NCBI GenBank assembly: GCA_008638205.1
Contig: VTPO01000008.1
Coordinates: forward strand, 1-61,546
Origin: Pelagibacteraceae bacterium
GTDB taxonomy: Bacteria > Pseudomonadota > Alphaproteobacteria > Pelagibacterales > Pelagibacteraceae
Length of the DNA: 61,546 nt
Direction: 5' to 3'
Shown here: in pieces, positions 49,202-61,546 of the stretch
How positions within the stretch are numbered: position 1 is the first letter of the stretch
How the letters are laid out: every line of letters starts with the position of its first letter
The notes under the pieces: model-generated
Databases searched by the model: none
Told to the model about the DNA's origin: nothing
Seen by the model: only the letters and a program-made list of their open reading frames with translations
Program-made: the position numbers and the translations under genes

Positions 49202-49654
49202 TTAGGAAGACGGATCAATAAGTGGAGTGCCTTTTAACCATTTAGATTGATTATCATCGTAATGTTCTTTTTTCCAAATGGGAGTTTTTTTTTTAATTTC
49301 TTCAATAATGTATCTGGATAAATCGTATGCCTGAGATCTGTGCTTGGCAGCAACAGCAATGATAATTGATAATCCTCCCAAGGGAATATAACCTTTTGCG
49401 TGTTCTATATACACAGCTGGATGTTCAATAGTTAGTTTCTTGGAGGCCTCTTCAAAAATTTCTTTAAAGCTTTTCTCTACCATTGCGTCATGTGAATCGT
49501 AAGTAATTCCAGTAACATTTTTATTATTGTTATGATTACGTACCGTTCCAATAAAAAATAACGATGCCCCGCATTTTTCCGAAGCAATAAATTGCTGAGC
49601 TTTGTCTAAAGACAAAGATCCTTTAGAAGATTCTATGACCTTACCGTAAAACAT
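49202..49654 (-). CDS. moaE: molybdopterin synthase catalytic subunit MoaE
   Basis: Large subunit of molybdopterin synthase, 150 residues. GTVRNHNNNKNVTGITYDSHDAMVEK and KHRSQAYDLSRYIIEEIKKKTPIWKKE hold the conserved His and the two active-site lysines. It pairs with MoaD, encoded immediately upstream with a one-base overlap. Confidence 0.95.
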   Translation of the reverse strand: MFYGKVIESSKGSLSLDKAQQFIASEKCGASLFFIGTVRNHNNNKNVTGITYDSHDAMVEKSFKEIFEEASKKLTIEHPAVYIEHAKGYIPLGGLSIIIAVAAKHRSQAYDLSRYIIEEIKKKTPIWKKEHYDDNQSKWLKGTPLIDPSS

Positions 49655-52513: not shown

Positions 52514-53317
52514 ATGTCAGTAAAATCTATTGAAAAAACTTTATCTACTTTGGATTTTTTTATTAGCAACATGAAACCAGGTGGTTTGGCTCTTAAGGAT
52601 GTATGTGCTAGCCTTGGATTTAAAAAATCTGCAGCCCATCACATGTTAGCTACAGTCTGCCAAAAAGGTTACCTTTATCAAGATCTTAAAACTAAAAAAT
52701 ATTTAATTGGCTCTAAAATTAAAAAAATGAGCAAATTAGCAATATTAGATGACACTGGTTTTTCAGATTTTGCGTTTGACCAGATCAAAAAAGTGAATGA
52801 CGAAACAGGAGAAGCGGTTCATTTAGCAGGTTTTGAGGGTACACGACTGATTACCCTAACCATGCTAGAATCTAAGCATCCGGTTAGAGTGGATCATGGC
52901 TTTTTAAACAAAGACCACGCATTCCATGCCACAGCCTCTGGAAAGGCAATCCTTGCACATATGAATTTAGCTAATCAAGAAAAAATACTAAAAAAAAATA
53001 GAGTAAAGTTTACGGAGTTTACCATTACAGATAAAGTTACTTTGTTAAAAGAGCTGAATGCTATTAAAAAAAATGGCTATGCCATTGATGATGAGGAATT
53101 TCAAGAAGGTGTCTATTGTGTTGGTTGCCCAGTTTTTGATCAGTACCATGAACCAGTTGCCTCTGTTAGCTGCTCTTCTCCTAAATACAAAATAATTAGA
53201 GACAAAAAATATTTAGATAAAATTAAAAGTTTTACACAGCAAGCAGCTATTGAAATTAGCAAATACTACAAACCAAAAAAAACAATAAAAAAAGGAGAGA
53301 GAAAATATGCCGCCTAA
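52514..53317 (+). CDS. IclR family transcriptional regulator
   Basis: Regulator of 267 residues. Residues 5-65 are the winged helix (LDFFISNMKPGGLALKDVCASLGF, recognition helix KKSAAHHMLATVCQKGY). Residues 75-250 are the effector domain, with GEAVHLAGFEG, HAFHATASGKAIL and DDEEFQEGVYCVGCPVFD, typical of IclR. It leads an operon of dehydrogenase and transporter genes and probably senses their substrate. Its 3' end overlaps the alcohol dehydrogenase gene by eleven bases. Confidence 0.92.
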   Translation: MSVKSIEKTLSTLDFFISNMKPGGLALKDVCASLGFKKSAAHHMLATVCQKGYLYQDLKTKKYLIGSKIKKMSKLAILDDTGFSDFAFDQIKKVNDETGEAVHLAGFEGTRLITLTMLESKHPVRVDHGFLNKDHAFHATASGKAILAHMNLANQEKILKKNRVKFTEFTITDKVTLLKELNAIKKNGYAIDDEEFQEGVYCVGCPVFDQYHEPVASVSCSSPKYKIIRDKKYLDKIKSFTQQAAIEISKYYKPKKTIKKGERKYAA

Positions 53318-54443
53318 AGACAATAATACAATGATGGGACATAATCAGTTTGACATTCCAAAAGAAATGGGAGCTTGGGTTTTGAATGATCCTGATCACA
53401 TTGAAATTAAAAAGAAACCAGTTCCAGAACCAAAAGACGATGAGGTTTTGTTAAAAATTGATGCAGTTGCTATTTGCGCTACAGATTTAGAAATTATAAG
53501 TCACGGTAAACCAGCGCAAATCGAAGGCCAAGCGCCATTTAATAAAAATTACTCACCAGGGCACGAAGCTATGGGAAGAGTAGTTAAGTTAGGTGCAGCA
53601 GTTGACGATTTTAAAATTGGACAGAGAGTTGCTGTTGAGATTCATGCTGGATGTAGCAGATGTGAAATGTGCGTTAAAGGTTGGTATACTTCATGCTTAA
53701 ATTATGGGTTTGCTTCTAAGGGACACAAGGCAAACGGTTTTACAACAGACGGTGCATTTGCAGAATACATGACCAACAGAACTAGAACTTTAGTTAAAGT
53801 TCCAGATGACATGTCTGATGAAGAAGCCACTTTAGCAGTTACAGCTGGAACAAGTATGTATACCCTAGATGTTATGGGTGGCTTGTTTGCAGGACAAACT
53901 GTGGTTGTTATGGGACCTGGACCAATTGGTCTTTGTGCTGTGGGCGTAGCAAATGCTCTTGGTGCAGAAGTTATTTTAACAGGTACTAGAGATAACAGGT
54001 TAGAGATTGGAAAAAAACTTGGAGCGTCCCATGTTATCAATGTTAAAAATGATGACGCAGTTAAAGTGGTAAAAGAACTTACGGAAGGAATCGGAGCTCA
54101 CTATGTTCTTGATTGCTCAGGTGCTCCGAACGCGGTTAACGACGCTTCTTCTATGATTAGAAGAGGGGGAAAGATCGGGTTAGCAGCTTTTCCATCTAAA
54201 CCAGTAGAAGTAGATATTGCTAATTTAGTTAGAAATAACGCATATATTTACGCGACTAGAGGCGAGGGAAAATCAGCTTGTCATAGAGCTATGGGTTTAA
54301 TGGCGAAAAAACGATTTGATGCAAAATTAATTCATACTCACACGTTTGCTATGAAAGATCTGCAAACAGGTCTAAAATACACAAGAGAAAGAATTGAAGA
54401 CGCAATCAAAGTAGTTGTCAGAAATGACGATCGCTTAATTTAA
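53307..54443 (+). CDS. zinc-dependent alcohol dehydrogenase (MDR family)
   Basis: Medium-chain dehydrogenase of 378 residues. Catalytic zinc ligands are Cys57 (AICATD) and His86-Glu87 (GHEAMG); the structural zinc site is Cys116, Cys119, Cys122 and Cys130. The nucleotide fold GPGPIG is at 203-208. It would oxidise an alcohol or polyol with NAD(P). A strong AGGAG (53293-53297) precedes ATG 53307, inside the iclR end. Substrate unknown; context suggests the first oxidation of the imported compound or of an intermediate. Confidence 0.92.
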   Translation: MPPKDNNTMMGHNQFDIPKEMGAWVLNDPDHIEIKKKPVPEPKDDEVLLKIDAVAICATDLEIISHGKPAQIEGQAPFNKNYSPGHEAMGRVVKLGAAVDDFKIGQRVAVEIHAGCSRCEMCVKGWYTSCLNYGFASKGHKANGFTTDGAFAEYMTNRTRTLVKVPDDMSDEEATLAVTAGTSMYTLDVMGGLFAGQTVVVMGPGPIGLCAVGVANALGAEVILTGTRDNRLEIGKKLGASHVINVKNDDAVKVVKELTEGIGAHYVLDCSGAPNAVNDASSMIRRGGKIGLAAFPSKPVEVDIANLVRNNAYIYATRGEGKSACHRAMGLMAKKRFDAKLIHTHTFAMKDLQTGLKYTRERIEDAIKVVVRNDDRLI

Positions 54444-54454
54444 TAAATAAAATT

Positions 54455-55387
54455 ATGCTTCGATACGATAATTATTTTATCCCAAAAAGTTTAGATGAGT
54501 ATTTTAACCTACTCACGGAGGTAAAAGATTATCGTATTGTTGCAGGTTGTACCGATGTTTTACCTTGGGCTAGAGAAGGTAGAGCCGGCAATGTCTTTAT
54601 TAAAAATATTATCGATATTACCAACATTAAAGAATTAAATATTTTTGAAATCCACAAAGATAAAATAAAAATTAGTGCGACCACTACTTTTCAAAAATTA
54701 TTTATAGATCCTCAAATAAGAAAAGATATTAAAATTTTACCTCAAGTGTCTGTTTGGTTTGCGGATGACCAAATAAGGGAACAAGCTACCATTGGAGGAA
54801 ATATTGTTAATGCATCACCTGCAGGGGACGGAAGTCCTGCTTTTTTAACCTTGAATGCTCAAGCAATTATTATGGGTAGAAAGGGCAAAGATATTTACGA
54901 AAGAAAAATTAGTTTAGACAAATTTATTTTAGGAAGAAACAAAGTTGATTTGCAGGGTAATGAAATTTTAGCTGCATTAGAAATGGACAATACAAAAGGT
55001 TATGGGGCTAGTTTTGAAAAGGTTGGGCATAGAAGGTCGTTAGTTATTTCTACAGTTTGCGTAAGTTGTGTCGCAAGAACAGATAGTTCTGGAAAATTAT
55101 TCGATGATGTTCGTATTGCGGTAGCTGGGGTAAGAGAAATACCTTGTCGATTAGAAAAAACAGAAAAATTTCTACAGGGAAAAGAAATTAATGAGCAAAA
55201 TATTTTACAAGCTTCAGTCCTCGACTTAGATGTTATTAATGCAAGAAGCAGACTAGAATATAGAAAAGAAGTTTTGCAAAACTTTATTATTAGAGCAATT
55301 ATTAAATCAGTCTCAGAAAAAATTATCATAAAAGAAAATTATTTCGAAAAAACTAAAATACAAAAACTTGAGGAGGTTCATGCATAA
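54455..55387 (+). CDS. xanthine dehydrogenase family FAD-binding subunit (CoxM-like)
   Basis: FAD subunit of 310 residues. N-terminal FIPKSLDEYFNLL and RIVAGCTDVLPWAREG form the first FAD lobe; the ATIGGNIVNASPAGD motif near residue 112 is the family FAD-binding signature, followed by YGASFEKVGHRRSL and the C-terminal CO dehydrogenase flavoprotein-like domain. It passes electrons from the [2Fe-2S] clusters of the next gene product to NAD or another acceptor. It overlaps the next gene by eight bases. Confidence 0.92.
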   Translation: MLRYDNYFIPKSLDEYFNLLTEVKDYRIVAGCTDVLPWAREGRAGNVFIKNIIDITNIKELNIFEIHKDKIKISATTTFQKLFIDPQIRKDIKILPQVSVWFADDQIREQATIGGNIVNASPAGDGSPAFLTLNAQAIIMGRKGKDIYERKISLDKFILGRNKVDLQGNEILAALEMDNTKGYGASFEKVGHRRSLVISTVCVSCVARTDSSGKLFDDVRIAVAGVREIPCRLEKTEKFLQGKEINEQNILQASVLDLDVINARSRLEYRKEVLQNFIIRAIIKSVSEKIIIKENYFEKTKIQKLEEVHA

Positions 55388-57257
55388 GTTAACAATTAAT
55401 TTAGAAGTTAATGGTCGAAAAATAAATAAAGAGGTAAATTCTCACTATCGTTTATTGGATTTTCTTAGGGAAGATCTTGATTTAACTGGCTCCAAAGAAG
55501 GTTGTGGAGCGGGTGAATGTGGAACTTGTTCAGTTTTTGTAGACGGAAAGTTAGTAAAGAGTTGTTTGATGCCAGTTGCTAAAGCTTCAGGGAAAAAGAT
55601 AGAAACCGTAGAACACCAAGGTACTCCAGATAATCTATCCACTTTGCAAAAAGCATTTTTTCTAACAGGTGCCAGTCAGTGTGGCTTTTGTATTCCTGGT
55701 ATGGTTATGGCTGCCACTTCCACTTTGAGAAACAATCCAAAAGCAGACATTGAAGAAATTAAAGAAGAAATGGGTGGAAATATTTGTAGATGTACTGGAT
55801 ACCAGAAAATTTTTGATGCCGTAGAATTGGCTAGAGATGTCATTTCAGGAAAATTAGATCCCAAAGCTCTTGAGGAATATTCAAAGCCGGAAGCATCTTA
55901 TTTAGGTGCAAATGTTAAAAGAATTGATGCTCCTGGAAAAGTTACTGGAAGATTAAAATATGCTGCTGATATGAAAATGCCAAATATGCTTCATATGCAA
56001 GTTTTTAGAAGTTCTAGACCTCATGCTAAAATAAAAAAACTGGATCTTAGCAAAGCAAAAGCCGTGAGTGGAGTAGAAGCAATTGTTACTTGTGATGATG
56101 TTCCAGGAATAGATAACTTTGGAGTATTCATTGAAGATCAACCAGTACTCGCAAAAGAAAGAGTAAGGTACGTTGGTGAGGCAATTGCAGCAGTGGCAGC
56201 AGATACGTTGGAAGCTGCAAAAGAAGCGGTAAGTAAAATTGAAATTGAGTATGAAGATCTTCCAGCGCTATATGATCCTGAAGAAGCTTTAAAAGATGAA
56301 ATTTTAATTCATGAACACTATAAAACCAATTTAGTAAAACATATTCCTATTAGAAAAGGAAATGTTGAAGAGGGTTTTGCAAAAGCAGATTTAATTGTAG
56401 AAGAAAAATTTGCTACACAGCCTGTTGAGCATGCTTATTTAGAACCTATGGCTGGATTGAGTTACGTAGATTCAGACGGAACATTGGTTATTGTTTCTCC
56501 AAGTCAAAACATTACTCATCATAGACACATGATGTCAAAAATTATGGACCTTCCCATTAATAAAGTAAGATTTATTATGTCTCCAGTTGGAGGAGGCTTT
56601 GGTGGAAAAGAGGATATGATTTATCAAGGTATGTTAGCATTGTGTGCAATGAAAACTAGATTGCCAGTACGTTATGTCATGACTAGAGAAGAAGATATTA
56701 CCTCCACTGCAAAAAGACATCCAAGTAGAACCAATTACAAAATTGGAATCACAAAAGATGGAAAAATAACAGCAGTTCAAATTAAAATGCTTGCAGATGG
56801 TGGTGCTTATGGATGTTCTACAGAAGGGGTTATGAGAAAAGCTGCTATTTTAGGAGCAGGTCCCTACAAGATAGATAATTTGCAAATGGACACATTTGGA
56901 GTTTACACCAACAACACTCCCAGTGGTGCTTTTAGAAGTTTTGGTGCTCTGCAAACTGAATTTGCAACAGAATCTATTTTGGATATTTGTGCTGAAAAAT
57001 TAAACATGGATCCTTTTGAACTGAGAAGAAAAAATATGTTTGTTGCGGGTGATTTAACTCATACAAAACAAGAATTAAATTCAGCAAGTATAGGAACTGT
57101 TTTAAATGAGCTAGAAAGTTTAGCGAGTTGGGAAAAAGGAACCCCTAACTCTAGAGGAGCTAGTAGAAAAGATTTAAACGGTAAAGATAATAGAGATTCT
57201 TGTTTTTTAGGTGCTAGATTAAATGAAAAACCAGAAGCTAGCGGGGGAGTTAAATAA
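55380..57257 (+). CDS. fused [2Fe-2S] subunit and N-terminal half of Moco subunit (xanthine dehydrogenase family)
   Basis: Unusual 625-residue fusion. Residues 1-155 are a complete CoxS-type subunit: plant-type cluster Cys42, Cys47, Cys50 and Cys62, and the four-helix cluster Cys101, Cys104, Cys136 and Cys138. A linker (about 156-172) leads into the alpha/beta hammerhead domain (175-290) and the first Moco-binding domain (310-555), with GGGFGGK at 404-410 and SGAFRSFGALQ at 515-525. The FRSFG form, lacking the CoxL AYRCSFR loop, indicates a hydroxylase of the xanthine dehydrogenase branch, not CO dehydrogenase. The chain stops exactly where the second Moco domain should begin; that is the next gene. 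ATG 55380 follows AGGAGG; an upstream TTG is less likely. Confidence 0.92.
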   Translation: MHKLTINLEVNGRKINKEVNSHYRLLDFLREDLDLTGSKEGCGAGECGTCSVFVDGKLVKSCLMPVAKASGKKIETVEHQGTPDNLSTLQKAFFLTGASQCGFCIPGMVMAATSTLRNNPKADIEEIKEEMGGNICRCTGYQKIFDAVELARDVISGKLDPKALEEYSKPEASYLGANVKRIDAPGKVTGRLKYAADMKMPNMLHMQVFRSSRPHAKIKKLDLSKAKAVSGVEAIVTCDDVPGIDNFGVFIEDQPVLAKERVRYVGEAIAAVAADTLEAAKEAVSKIEIEYEDLPALYDPEEALKDEILIHEHYKTNLVKHIPIRKGNVEEGFAKADLIVEEKFATQPVEHAYLEPMAGLSYVDSDGTLVIVSPSQNITHHRHMMSKIMDLPINKVRFIMSPVGGGFGGKEDMIYQGMLALCAMKTRLPVRYVMTREEDITSTAKRHPSRTNYKIGITKDGKITAVQIKMLADGGAYGCSTEGVMRKAAILGAGPYKIDNLQMDTFGVYTNNTPSGAFRSFGALQTEFATESILDICAEKLNMDPFELRRKNMFVAGDLTHTKQELNSASIGTVLNELESLASWEKGTPNSRGASRKDLNGKDNRDSCFLGARLNEKPEASGGVK

Positions 57258-58276
57258 TGAGTCTAACTAAAAAAAGAGGAAGAGGAATGGCCGCTTCCTG
57301 GTATGGAATTTCAAGAACTGCTGCAATGGATCAGGCTGGAGCTTGGGCCGAAATAGATGATGGGGGTACAGCAAAAGTGGTTACTGGTGTTACCGAAATT
57401 GGAGAAGGAATACTAACGGTTCTAGCCCAAGTGGCTGCAGAGGAATTGGGCGTCAAACCAGAGTTGGTACACATTGGAGATAACGATACTTCTAGAAGTC
57501 CAGAAGCAGCGCATGCAGGAGCTACCAGGCAAACATATATGATTGGTAACGCTGTGGCTATGGCTTGCAGAGATTCAAAAGACAAGTTGTTTAATGAAAT
57601 TGCAAAAGAATGGAATGTAGAAAAAGAAACATTGCAAGCTCATGATGGAGAAATCTGGGCTAATGGTACTAATTATAAAATGCCAATGTCAGAAGCTATT
57701 CATATTTGTAAAAAAAAATATGGAGTTATTCCGGTTGGAAGTGGAAATTACACATCTCATAACACCCCTTTAGATCCTGTCGATGGTTCTGGAAGTCCAT
57801 GGCAAGCATATGTGTTTGGTGGGCAAGTTGCGGAAGTAGAAGTTGATACAGCTACAGGAGAAGTTCAAATATTAGGAATCTGGGCATGTCATGATGTGGG
57901 AAAAGCAATTAATCCAAAAGGTATTGAAGGTCAGATTGAAGGTGGCGTAGTTCAGGCGGTAGGCCAAGCTCTTATGGAAGACTATCAGCAAGTAGAAGGT
58001 CACACTACCACAGGAAGTTTTGCAAAATATATTTTACCGACATCATTAGATGTTCCAAAAGTTACAACCAAAATTGTTGAAGATCTAGATCCATTAAGTC
58101 CACTTGGTGCTAAAGGTATAGGAGAACCAGCGATGGTTCCTACATGCCCAGCTATTATGAATGCTATTTATGATGCTGTTGGTGTTAGGATTCAATCTTT
58201 GCCGGCTACGCCTGAAAAAATCTTGAGGGCTCTGGATGAAAAAAAACGTAAGTCAAATGGAATGGCTATTAACTAG
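57257..58276 (+). CDS. C-terminal half of the Moco subunit (xanthine dehydrogenase family)
   Basis: Second Moco-binding domain as a separate protein of 339 residues. It begins RGRGMAASWYG, the normal start of this domain, and has GVTEIGEGILTVLAQVAAEELG, GDNDTSRSPEAAHAGATRQTY and AKGIGEPAM with the catalytic Glu of the family. The gene overlaps the preceding stop by one base (TAATG) and has its own GGGGGAG ribosome site seven bases before ATG, so the division is real and not a frameshift artefact. The two proteins must assemble to build one Moco site. Confidence 0.92.
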   Translation: MSLTKKRGRGMAASWYGISRTAAMDQAGAWAEIDDGGTAKVVTGVTEIGEGILTVLAQVAAEELGVKPELVHIGDNDTSRSPEAAHAGATRQTYMIGNAVAMACRDSKDKLFNEIAKEWNVEKETLQAHDGEIWANGTNYKMPMSEAIHICKKKYGVIPVGSGNYTSHNTPLDPVDGSGSPWQAYVFGGQVAEVEVDTATGEVQILGIWACHDVGKAINPKGIEGQIEGGVVQAVGQALMEDYQQVEGHTTTGSFAKYILPTSLDVPKVTTKIVEDLDPLSPLGAKGIGEPAMVPTCPAIMNAIYDAVGVRIQSLPATPEKILRALDEKKRKSNGMAIN

Positions 58277-58312: not shown

Positions 58313-59266
58313 ATGAAAATAGTAAAAAAAATAAGCTCGATACTAGTGGCTATGTCACTATTATTGGGATCTAATTCTTTTGCTGCTGATAAGTTCCCAT
58401 CTAAATATGTCGAAATGACAGTATTATTTGGTGGAACGGCTAAAAGTGTTGGCCAATTAGTTGCTAAAGGACTTGAGAAAAATCTGGGAGCAACGGTTGT
58501 TCCAGTATCAAGACCAGGTGGTGGAGGTGCTGTAGGATACAAATATATTCAGTCTAGACCTGCATCTGGATATGATATTGTTTGGAACTCAAACTCTGTG
58601 AGTACAACTTTCCATGGTGGAAAAGTTCCTTTTAATTTCAAAACTTTTGCACCTATTGCTGCTATGAGTATTGAAGTTCCAGTTTTGGCAGTTAAAGCTG
58701 GTTCTTTTAAAGACATTAATGAGCTAGCGGCTTATGCTAAAAAAAATCCTGGCAAGCTTAAAGTTGGTATTAGTGGAAAGGGTGCTTTTACTCACTTAAC
58801 TTCTGCAATTATCTTTGATGCGTTAGGTGTCAAAGTTAATTATATTTCCTACGGAAAAGGAAAAGCTCCTACTGAATTATTAGCAGGAAGAATTGATGCT
58901 GCAGTTCAGTGGCCAGGACAATTCAGATCATTTGATAAAGCTGGTCAATTAAAAATGTTAGCCGCAACAAGTCCAAAGAGAATTGCATCTGACCCAGGGG
59001 TTCCAACAATGCAAGAGCTTGGATATAAAAAAGTTGATGTAACGATGTGGAGAGGATTAGCTGCAAAAAAAGGTACTCCAAAAGATCATATAAAAGCGAT
59101 CGAAGCTGCTGCTAAAACATATGCATCGAGTCCAGAATTTATCGCTGCTTCTAAAAAAATTGGTTTTGAAATCAATTATTTAGATTCAAAAGCATTTGGT
59201 AAAAAAATTGCTGCAGATGATAAAAAAATTGGACAACTAATGAAAAATCTTGGTTTAAAAAAGTAA
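58313..59266 (+). CDS. tctC: tripartite tricarboxylate transporter substrate-binding protein (TctC/Bug)
   Basis: Periplasmic binding protein of 317 residues. A signal peptide ends near residue 24 (SNSFAA). YVEMTVLFGGTAKSVGQLVAKGLEK, VPVSRPGGGGAVGYKYI, VNYISYGKGKAPTELLAGRIDA and MWRGLAAKKGTP are the Bug-family pattern. These proteins bind carboxylated or otherwise polar organic acids. A strong AAGGGGAG ribosome site precedes the start. Its expression with the dehydrogenase genes suggests that it brings in their substrate. Confidence 0.93.
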   Translation: MKIVKKISSILVAMSLLLGSNSFAADKFPSKYVEMTVLFGGTAKSVGQLVAKGLEKNLGATVVPVSRPGGGGAVGYKYIQSRPASGYDIVWNSNSVSTTFHGGKVPFNFKTFAPIAAMSIEVPVLAVKAGSFKDINELAAYAKKNPGKLKVGISGKGAFTHLTSAIIFDALGVKVNYISYGKGKAPTELLAGRIDAAVQWPGQFRSFDKAGQLKMLAATSPKRIASDPGVPTMQELGYKKVDVTMWRGLAAKKGTPKDHIKAIEAAAKTYASSPEFIAASKKIGFEINYLDSKAFGKKIAADDKKIGQLMKNLGLKK

Positions 59267-59287: not shown

Positions 59288-59767
59288 ATGATTAGAAAAA
59301 GCAAGTTTTATTTAGCTTTAGGGTTAGGTGTGCTTGCTTTTTCAATCACGTGGATTTTTTTAGTTTTTTTTCAAATTGAAGGAAATATAGGATCTCCTGG
59401 AAATACACCAAGATCCATCCCTTTTTTTCTTGGTTGCTGCATGTTTCTTCTAGGGGTTATTTTTATTTATCAATATTATTTAGGCTATCGACCAAAAAGC
59501 TCTATTGAGGGAATAAAAAAAAATGAAATTAAAAATATAGCAATTTGTATTTTCTTTTTTGTTTTATATTCATTTACTTTAGAATGGTTTGGTTTTTTAA
59601 TTTCTACACCTGTGATTATTTTTTTAATCACACGATTTTTGCTCCAAGAAAAAAGTTGGAAAATTAATATCCTTTTTCCAATTTTGATGACGGCTTCTAT
59701 TTACTTTATATTTATTACACTGCTGAACTCTGCTTTACCTAGAGGAACTATTATAGAATTGTTATGA
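59288..59767 (+). CDS. tctB: tripartite tricarboxylate transporter small membrane subunit (TctB)
   Basis: Membrane protein of 159 residues with four hydrophobic helices (around 7-28, 45-63, 84-102, 104-145), standard for TctB despite low sequence conservation. The G-N-T-P-R-S-I-P motif after helix 1 is typical of the family. It is coupled to the next gene by an ATGA overlap. Confidence 0.88.
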   Translation: MIRKSKFYLALGLGVLAFSITWIFLVFFQIEGNIGSPGNTPRSIPFFLGCCMFLLGVIFIYQYYLGYRPKSSIEGIKKNEIKNIAICIFFFVLYSFTLEWFGFLISTPVIIFLITRFLLQEKSWKINILFPILMTASIYFIFITLLNSALPRGTIIELL

Positions 59768-61293
59768 TCGAAAATTTAATTGCTGCTTTTCATATGACAG
59801 CAACATTAGAAGTATTTTTTGCTGTTTGCTTAGGTTCCTTTGCTGGTATTATTTTTGGTGCTATTCCAGGTCTAACTTATTCGATGGCTCTTGCATTAAT
59901 GTTGCCTTTTACTTTTACTATGGAGCCAGCGACCGGTATTTCCTTATTATTAGCAACCTACATCGGAGGAATGACAGGTGGATCTATTTCTGCAATTTTA
60001 ATTGGAATTCCAGGAACACCATCCGCAGCTGCTACAGTGGCTGACGGCTATGCATTGGCTAAAAAAGGTGAGGCTAGTATCGCATTAGGAGCGGCAGTAA
60101 TTGTTTCTACTATCGGCGGCCTAATTAGTCTTATTATTATGATTTTGTTAGTCGACTTTATCTCTAAATTTGCCATTAAATTTGGACCTGCCGAAATATT
60201 TATGTTGGTACTTTTTGGTTTTTCTACCATTTGTGGGTTGGCGGAGAGGTCTTTATTTCGAGGACTAGTTGCTGGTGTTTTGGGCTTAATGTTAATGACC
60301 ATTGGAATTGATGAATTGGAAGGCGTTCAGAGATTCACTTTTGGCAATGTTCAAATGCTTCAAGGGGTAAATTTACTAGTAGCTATGATTGGTCTTTTTG
60401 CAGTACCTCATATTTTAGAAGTTTTTCTTCAAAGGATAAATAAAGAAGATAAAGTTAACTTTGATGTTGGAGAGGTCAAAACTACCTTGCCAGGATTTCA
60501 ATTTATTAAAAAATATTTTAATCTTGTATTGCGTTGTACAGGATTAGGAACTTCCATTGGTGCTATACCTGGATCCGGAGGTCCAATCGCAGCATTTTTG
60601 GCATATTCTCATGCTAAAAATTCAGAAAAAGACCCTAAGGAAAAAGATACTTTTGGCAAAGGAAACATTGCAGGTGTGGTAGCTCCCGAAGCAGCAAACA
60701 ATGCTGTGACAGGTGGTGCTATGGTGCCCCTTCTATCTTTGGGTATTCCAGGAGATCCAGCTACAGCAATTATTCTTGGTGGATTACTAATTCATGGGAT
60801 TGTGCCTGGACCAATGCTATTTATTGAAAATGCACCTGCAGTTTATTCTATTTATTTTGCCATTGTTGCTGCTTACATAGTTGTATTTATTTTTCAGGTA
60901 AATTTTATCAAATACATTGTAAAAATTTTAAAAGTTCAACCTCATCATCTTGCATGTGCAATTTTAATTATGGTAGTTGTTGGTTCTTATGTTATTAGAA
61001 ATTCTTTTTTAGACATTTATATAATGATTTTAATGGGATTGTTTGGATACTTTTTAAATAGAATTAAAATTCCCATAACACCGGTGGTGTTAGGTTTAGT
61101 TTTGGGGGAAGCAATTGAATCAAATTACAGAACAGCCATGTCTTTATCTTCAGGAGAAATATCAATATTTTTTAGCTCAATTGTTTCTGTACTATTTTTT
61201 CTTCTAATTATTTTGACTATTGCTTTGCAAGTAAAAAAAAGAATTTTAGAAATTAGAAAACAAAAAAATCAATTTGATAAAGGAGCGGCATGA
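59764..61293 (+). CDS. tctA: tripartite tricarboxylate transporter large membrane subunit (TctA)
   Basis: Inner-membrane permease of 509 residues with about twelve helices. GAIPGLTYSMALALMLPFTF and the duplicated GIPGTPSAAATVADGYA and SLGIPGDPATAIILGG motifs are diagnostic of TctA. It carries the transport step driven by ion gradients. Its stop overlaps the start of the TPP-enzyme gene (ATGA). Confidence 0.95.
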   Translation: MIENLIAAFHMTATLEVFFAVCLGSFAGIIFGAIPGLTYSMALALMLPFTFTMEPATGISLLLATYIGGMTGGSISAILIGIPGTPSAAATVADGYALAKKGEASIALGAAVIVSTIGGLISLIIMILLVDFISKFAIKFGPAEIFMLVLFGFSTICGLAERSLFRGLVAGVLGLMLMTIGIDELEGVQRFTFGNVQMLQGVNLLVAMIGLFAVPHILEVFLQRINKEDKVNFDVGEVKTTLPGFQFIKKYFNLVLRCTGLGTSIGAIPGSGGPIAAFLAYSHAKNSEKDPKEKDTFGKGNIAGVVAPEAANNAVTGGAMVPLLSLGIPGDPATAIILGGLLIHGIVPGPMLFIENAPAVYSIYFAIVAAYIVVFIFQVNFIKYIVKILKVQPHHLACAILIMVVVGSYVIRNSFLDIYIMILMGLFGYFLNRIKIPITPVVLGLVLGEAIESNYRTAMSLSSGEISIFFSSIVSVLFFLLIILTIALQVKKRILEIRKQKNQFDKGAA

Positions 61294-61546
61294 ATAATAC
61301 GGAGGTGGCAAAAAGAGCAAAAATCTTATCTGAAAATAATAATAACTTAGAACAATGTTTGGCTAATAGTAAAATACCTACTAACGTAGACGTCAGTTTA
61401 TCAGAAGGTTTGATACTGGCGCTGCTAAAACAAGGCGTTAGAAAATATTTTGCTATTTTTGGACATGGTTCTACGGACTTTGCAGAGGTATTAAGAATTT
61501 ATGAAGAATATGGAGTTACTAAAACCTATAATTTTAAAAACGAAGT
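61290..61546 (+). CDS. thiamine pyrophosphate-dependent enzyme, IolD-like (partial, runs off the window)
   Basis: Only the first 85 residues are present. The segment LILALLKQGVRKYFAIFGHGSTDFAEVLRIYEEYG is the N-terminal pyrimidine-binding region of acetolactate-synthase-like TPP enzymes, closest to IolD (trihydroxycyclohexanedione hydrolase), with the usual FGHGSTD. It is coupled to tctA by an ATGA overlap, with AGGAGCGG as ribosome site. It would cleave or ligate a 2-keto or dione intermediate. The remainder lies beyond 61546, so subtype is uncertain. Confidence 0.78.
   Translation, partial: MNNTEVAKRAKILSENNNNLEQCLANSKIPTNVDVSLSEGLILALLKQGVRKYFAIFGHGSTDFAEVLRIYEEYGVTKTYNFKNE

Follow-up and report, generated by a model that had tools for sequence, protein, structure and literature searches.

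The molybdenum cofactor (Moco) protein of Eubacterium barkeri nicotinate dehydrogenase (NDH, PDB 3hrd), a selenium enzyme, is divided between two polypeptides at the border of the domains MoCoBD_1 and MoCoBD_2. The enzyme is encoded by ndhF, ndhS, ndhL and ndhM in the order F-S-L-M (PMC10331938), i.e. FAD subunit, iron-sulfur (FeS) protein, Moco1 and Moco2. Enzymes of the three-subunit xanthine dehydrogenase (XDH)/4-hydroxybenzoyl-CoA reductase type (XdhABC, PucCDE, 1rm6) have a separate FeS protein and a continuous Moco subunit. In the Desulfovibrio aldehyde oxidoreductase MOP (1sij/1dgj) and in Se-dependent XDH of the TIGR03311 type the Moco protein carries the FeS part at its N-terminus and runs through Moco1 and Moco2 without a break; MOP lacks an FAD subunit. 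As to Pelagibacteraceae, one paper (PMC12636525) lists coxSMLG and xdhAB among their Moco metabolisms, in passages that name no enzyme of the arrangement described below. In the open-licence literature a description of this architecture or of its operon was not found.

The locus studied here lies in a 61,546-nucleotide stretch of DNA from a Pelagibacteraceae bacterium (contig VTPO01000008.1), which was analysed as a whole and is called the window. On the + strand, the gene of an NdhF/XdhB-like FAD-binding subunit (54455..55387; 310 aa) overlaps by 8 bases the gene of a 625 aa fusion subunit (55380..57257, + strand; ATG at 55380, stop at 57255-57257), in which Fer2 and Fer2_2, the two [2Fe-2S] domains, are joined to the hammerhead domain and MoCoBD_1. 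A separate gene (57257..58276, + strand; 339 aa) codes for MoCoBD_2. At the junction of the two genes, gggggagttaaaTAATG, the start codon overlaps the preceding stop by one base (TAATG) and a purine-rich site is located ahead of the ATG. All Pfam matches exceeded the curated cut-offs: Fer2 (residues 9-61), Fer2_2 (76-149), Ald_Xan_dh_C (189-295) and MoCoBD_1 (310-553) in the fusion, and MoCoBD_2 (5-267) alone in the 339 aa chain. Alignment identified eight of eight cluster cysteines in the fusion (C42, C47, C50, C62, C101, C104, C136 and C138) and the catalytic Glu290 (E290) within the GIGEPA motif of the MoCoBD_2 chain; the Moco-region residues Q376, F407, R519 and F521 are kept, the Gln near the Mo being of the conserved type. 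The domain set of the xanthine oxidase family (Fer2, Fer2_2, hammerhead, MoCoBD_1 and MoCoBD_2) and its characteristic residues (eight cluster cysteines, catalytic Glu and the Gln) are thus complete. The initial annotation, which had proposed an XDH-family enzyme with this fusion, a separate Moco2 chain, all eight cysteines and a Glu in GIGEPA, agrees with the open reading frames and with the Pfam and residue assignments.

The best whole-chain matches of the fusion were MOP and TIGR03311-type proteins. With the TIGR03311 model itself the fusion scored 497 bits, far short of the cut-off of 830, in an alignment covering the N-terminal part, and the chain is not continuous. For the Moco2 chain the medium subunit of NDH (3hrd_B) was the best match in both sequence and fold, and for Moco1 3hrd was nearly, but not quite, the best. 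The NCBIfam equivalog scores stayed far below the thresholds (PucD, the best, 375.9 of 783.65; XdhA 310.7 of 780), with the qualification that these cut-offs were set for continuous chains, which puts a split chain at a disadvantage. The FAD subunit scored 168.7 bits with NF043083 (XdhB_XDHase), which is below the cut-off.

When a contig scan, whole-genome searches and a Phaeobacter piscinae plasmid were taken together, the domain order that the initial annotation had suggested searching for was found, as fusion plus split, in 21 distinct loci (identical proteins counted once). HIMB114, a SAR11 relative with a complete genome in one contig, has the same split, with 80% identity (79% and 83% for the two Moco genes) and an ATGA overlap at the junction. 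The contig scan also detected split relatives in the uncultured Pelagibacteraceae AG-894-A09, Actibacterium, a Paracoccaceae MAG, Roseovarius A-2, two Nioella, Aestuariivita, Salibaculum and Litoreibacter, and the complete plasmid of P. piscinae carries the same fusion and split. The position of the FAD gene is kept in all loci of the clade that have enough flank. The enzyme is present in 2 of the 297 sampled Pelagibacterales genomes and in 12 of 395 genomes (about one per genus) of the Rhodobacterales family to which G964 belongs; ten of these 12 are split, one is cut by a contig or locus end and one is continuous. In the cut one, L099, no Moco2 was found within the stretch examined. Class-wide sampling gave only three members (the window, HIMB114 and G593), and phylum-wide sampling only two (the window and G964). 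The split arrangement is real, rare and monophyletic, and occurs in a small group of marine relatives; the word "uncommon", used when the locus was first annotated, was appropriate.

Each of the 12 junctions that were read offers the downstream gene a start codon that overlaps the upstream stop, and most Rhodobacterales junctions have an additional alternative start 8-11 bases downstream. Pairwise dN/dS values between relatives were 0.01-0.12 in both chains, and were lower for Moco2 than for Moco1 in every pair for which both could be computed. These values point to strong purifying selection on both chains and indicate that neither is decaying. The earlier proposal that the split is functional is in line with this conservation.

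One member of the otherwise split clade is naturally continuous: L100:1441-4395 is a single 985-codon open frame containing all domains in the order FeS-Moco1-Moco2, with a short linker. Since L100 is a single protein, the two chains of the split enzymes most likely form one holoenzyme, and the existence of this sequence argues that they would act as one unit. L100 is located near the base of the clade, where the branching order is not fixed by the tree. After MoCoBD_1, the fusion subunits of the clade have a C-terminal tail (57120-57240 in the window) around the motif CxLGAR(L/I), which is common to SAR11, Rhodobacterales and L100. The fused-and-split enzymes constitute one branch in the Moco1+Moco2 tree (support 100/100), and the same clade was obtained in the FeS tree (100/99). 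Four-gene enzymes were placed elsewhere: E. barkeri NDH with the Tissierellia locus L035, and the alphaproteobacterial loci L049 and L058-L060. AU tests, which used a single-matrix model on long branches and are moderate rather than final evidence, rejected one clade of all split enzymes (p = 0.013), the pairing of the fused-and-split clade with the E. barkeri type (p = 0.019) and one clade of all FeS-Moco fused enzymes (p = 0.011). The tree and these tests suggest that splitting at the MoCoBD_1/MoCoBD_2 border probably occurred more than once, and that the split described here is probably not descended from that of E. barkeri.

The enzyme genes are part of a conserved operon on the + strand, which starts with an IclR-type regulator (52514..53317) and a Tdh/IolM-like Zn-dependent dehydrogenase (53307..54443; 85-88% in SAR11 relatives, about 64% in Rhodobacterales). 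Moco2 is followed, likewise on the + strand, by the TctC-type substrate-binding protein (58313..59266), the TctB-type small membrane subunit (59288..59767) and the TctA-type permease (59764..61293) of a tripartite tricarboxylate transporter, and by the start of a distantly IolD-like TPP-dependent enzyme (61290..61544). There the operon is broken by the contig end; it resumes on G000:C23 (L056:1-4838), where the remainder of the TPP enzyme is followed by the genes of an aldehyde dehydrogenase and of an IlvD/Edd dehydratase, both of which also come next in HIMB114 and Phaeobacter. The order IclR, Zn-dehydrogenase, FAD, FeS-Moco1, Moco2, TctC, TctB, TctA, TPP enzyme is the same in the SAR11 and Rhodobacterales loci, TctB being too diverged in a few of them for the cut-off used. 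None of the operon proteins reached a curated NCBIfam cut-off that names a substrate: the TPP enzyme gave 166 of 715 bits with IolD, the dehydrogenase 204 of 450 with IolM, and the dehydratase 676 of 882 with L-arabinonate dehydratase, exceeding the cut-off only for the generic dihydroxy-acid dehydratase subfamily model. An aldehyde dehydrogenase and an acid dehydratase next to a carboxylate importer would fit the breakdown of a sugar-acid-like compound; the substrate class itself (carboxylate or sugar-acid breakdown) is a guess that we regard as doubtful. Directly 3' of the operon, both SAR11 genomes (L056:5016-5753 and L047:15262-16011) encode a membrane protein, about 245 residues long, that is microbial-rhodopsin-like by eye, and a BLUF-domain gene is near the operon on the Phaeobacter plasmid (L046).

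Genes for cofactor synthesis are close by: moeA, moaB, moaC and moaA lie just upstream of the operon in the window, and 49202-49654 is likely moaE, with no NCBIfam match at the limit used. In the genome of the window PF02738 has a single match, and the only PF00384 match is NuoG. Neither MocA nor XdhC, a chaperone that Rhodobacter capsulatus needs to obtain active XDH (PMC2997495), was detected in this genome, although its operon and Moco synthesis genes are intact. The genome consists of 24 contigs and a gene may have been missed; the weak matches that were checked, on the G000 contigs C17, C2 and C18, turned out to be TrkA, MurU and GlmU. In HIMB114 both XdhC and MocA are present, near CO-dehydrogenase-like genes. 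For SelD, sub-threshold matches only were obtained in the window's genome and in HIMB114, and selenium dependence was rejected on this ground.

If the stop at 57255-57257 were an assembly or sequencing error in a truly continuous gene, continuous relatives should be found, as the initial annotation had pointed out. This is the case only for L100, whereas the split recurs at this position in 20 other independent loci, among them those of the complete HIMB114 genome and the complete Phaeobacter plasmid. The 339 aa chain of the window is read in a frame different from that of the fusion and has an ATG and a ribosome site to itself. Such an error was rejected, and its probability is negligible. 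Decay, in which the split would be an inactivating mutation of a degenerating operon, would suit a streamlined genome where XdhC and MocA were not detected, but it is very improbable in view of the low dN/dS of both chains and of the catalytic residues and operon kept across SAR11 and Rhodobacterales. Taking into account the shared F-S-L-M gene order, the shared split border, the similarity of both Moco chains to 3hrd and the Tyr16 that replaces bovine Phe1009 here as in NDH, the enzyme could also be an E. barkeri-type NDH with ndhS and ndhL fused into one gene. This is unlikely, because the Moco tree does not join NDH with the clade (see above for the AU tests), SelD was not found over the cut-off, and the operon neighbours appear unlike those of a nicotinate pathway. 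Moreover, the window enzyme has Glu at the position of bovine E802, where NDH has Leu, and Lys at that of bovine R880, where NDH has Arg; these differences indicate that the substrate is likely different from that of NDH.

Compatible with a working split enzyme is the reading that a fused FeS-Moco1-Moco2 protein of the MOP type was the ancestor, that only the split is derived and that L100 keeps the old state. The location of L100 near the base of the clade, its short linker and the FeS tree, which places the clade weakly beside the fused MOP-type proteins (88/69), are in favour of it. In contrast, the neighbours of the clade in the Moco1+Moco2 tree are, with weak support (90/56), enzymes whose FeS subunit is a protein of its own, a single clade of all fused enzymes was rejected, and re-fusion in L100 is equally possible; we consider a fused ancestor quite possible, though somewhat short of probable.

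The explanation that we prefer, and consider likely, is a working molybdenum hydroxylase of the xanthine oxidase family, of the type FAD / FeS-Moco1 / Moco2, whose Moco chains join the FAD subunit in a single holoenzyme and which catalyses a step in an IclR-controlled, carboxylate-importing operon. It is supported by the complete domains and active-site residues across three genes, the recurrence of the split with overlapping stop and start codons, the selection on both chains, the continuous form of L100, the separate MoCoBD_2 chain in the solved structure 3hrd, the operon order kept between SAR11 and Rhodobacterales, and the adjacent moeA, moaB, moaC and moaA genes. Against it can be held that XdhC and MocA were not found in the window's own genome, that no subunit reached a curated family cut-off, and that AlphaFold models of single chains, of moderate quality (mean pLDDT 61.5 and 66.8), added little beyond fold assignment. 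By homology with 3hrd, 1sij and bovine XDH, the two Moco chains would be made side by side from the overlapping genes and then assemble with the FAD subunit, so as to hold the cofactor between MoCoBD_1 and MoCoBD_2. Glu290 would activate the Mo-bound, water-derived group, and electrons would pass from Mo through the two [2Fe-2S] clusters to FAD. Under IclR control, a carboxylate would be imported via TctCBA, and the enzyme would probably oxidise an aldehyde or another intermediate of a sugar-acid-like substrate. It is conceivable, if rather improbable, that the enzyme represents a molybdenum hydroxylase subfamily of its own, with a role in a so far undescribed pathway of carboxylate catabolism (TctCBA, TPP enzyme, IlvD/Edd dehydratase) common to SAR11 and Rhodobacterales, and that in the window's genome it is the sole enzyme of its family and matures without XdhC and MocA. 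The conserved operon points to a carboxylate-degradation route in abundant marine bacteria, and L100, as a continuous natural relative, allows a direct test of what the split does.

Compared with the described systems, the locus shares with E. barkeri NDH, which had been named correctly as a precedent with a separate FeS subunit, the site of the split, but not the four-subunit composition, as S and L are fused here. With MOP and the TIGR03311 type it shares the FeS fusion, a feature common without the split in the sampled genomes, and with the three-subunit type all domains and the FAD subunit. The alphaproteobacterial loci L049 and L058-L060, a second group with four genes (FAD, FeS, Moco1, Moco2) and not closely related to E. 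barkeri NDH, also divide the Moco protein at this border; their FeS protein is separate, and they belong to a distant clade (about 37-39% identity). These comparisons suggest that the division of the Moco protein between MoCoBD_1 and MoCoBD_2 has more than one origin, and was combined once with an FeS fusion. The architectural oddity alone changes little in the understanding of the enzyme class, and is probably an alternative packaging of the same kind of enzyme: fusion and split are each known separately, and the arrangement recombines these known moves.
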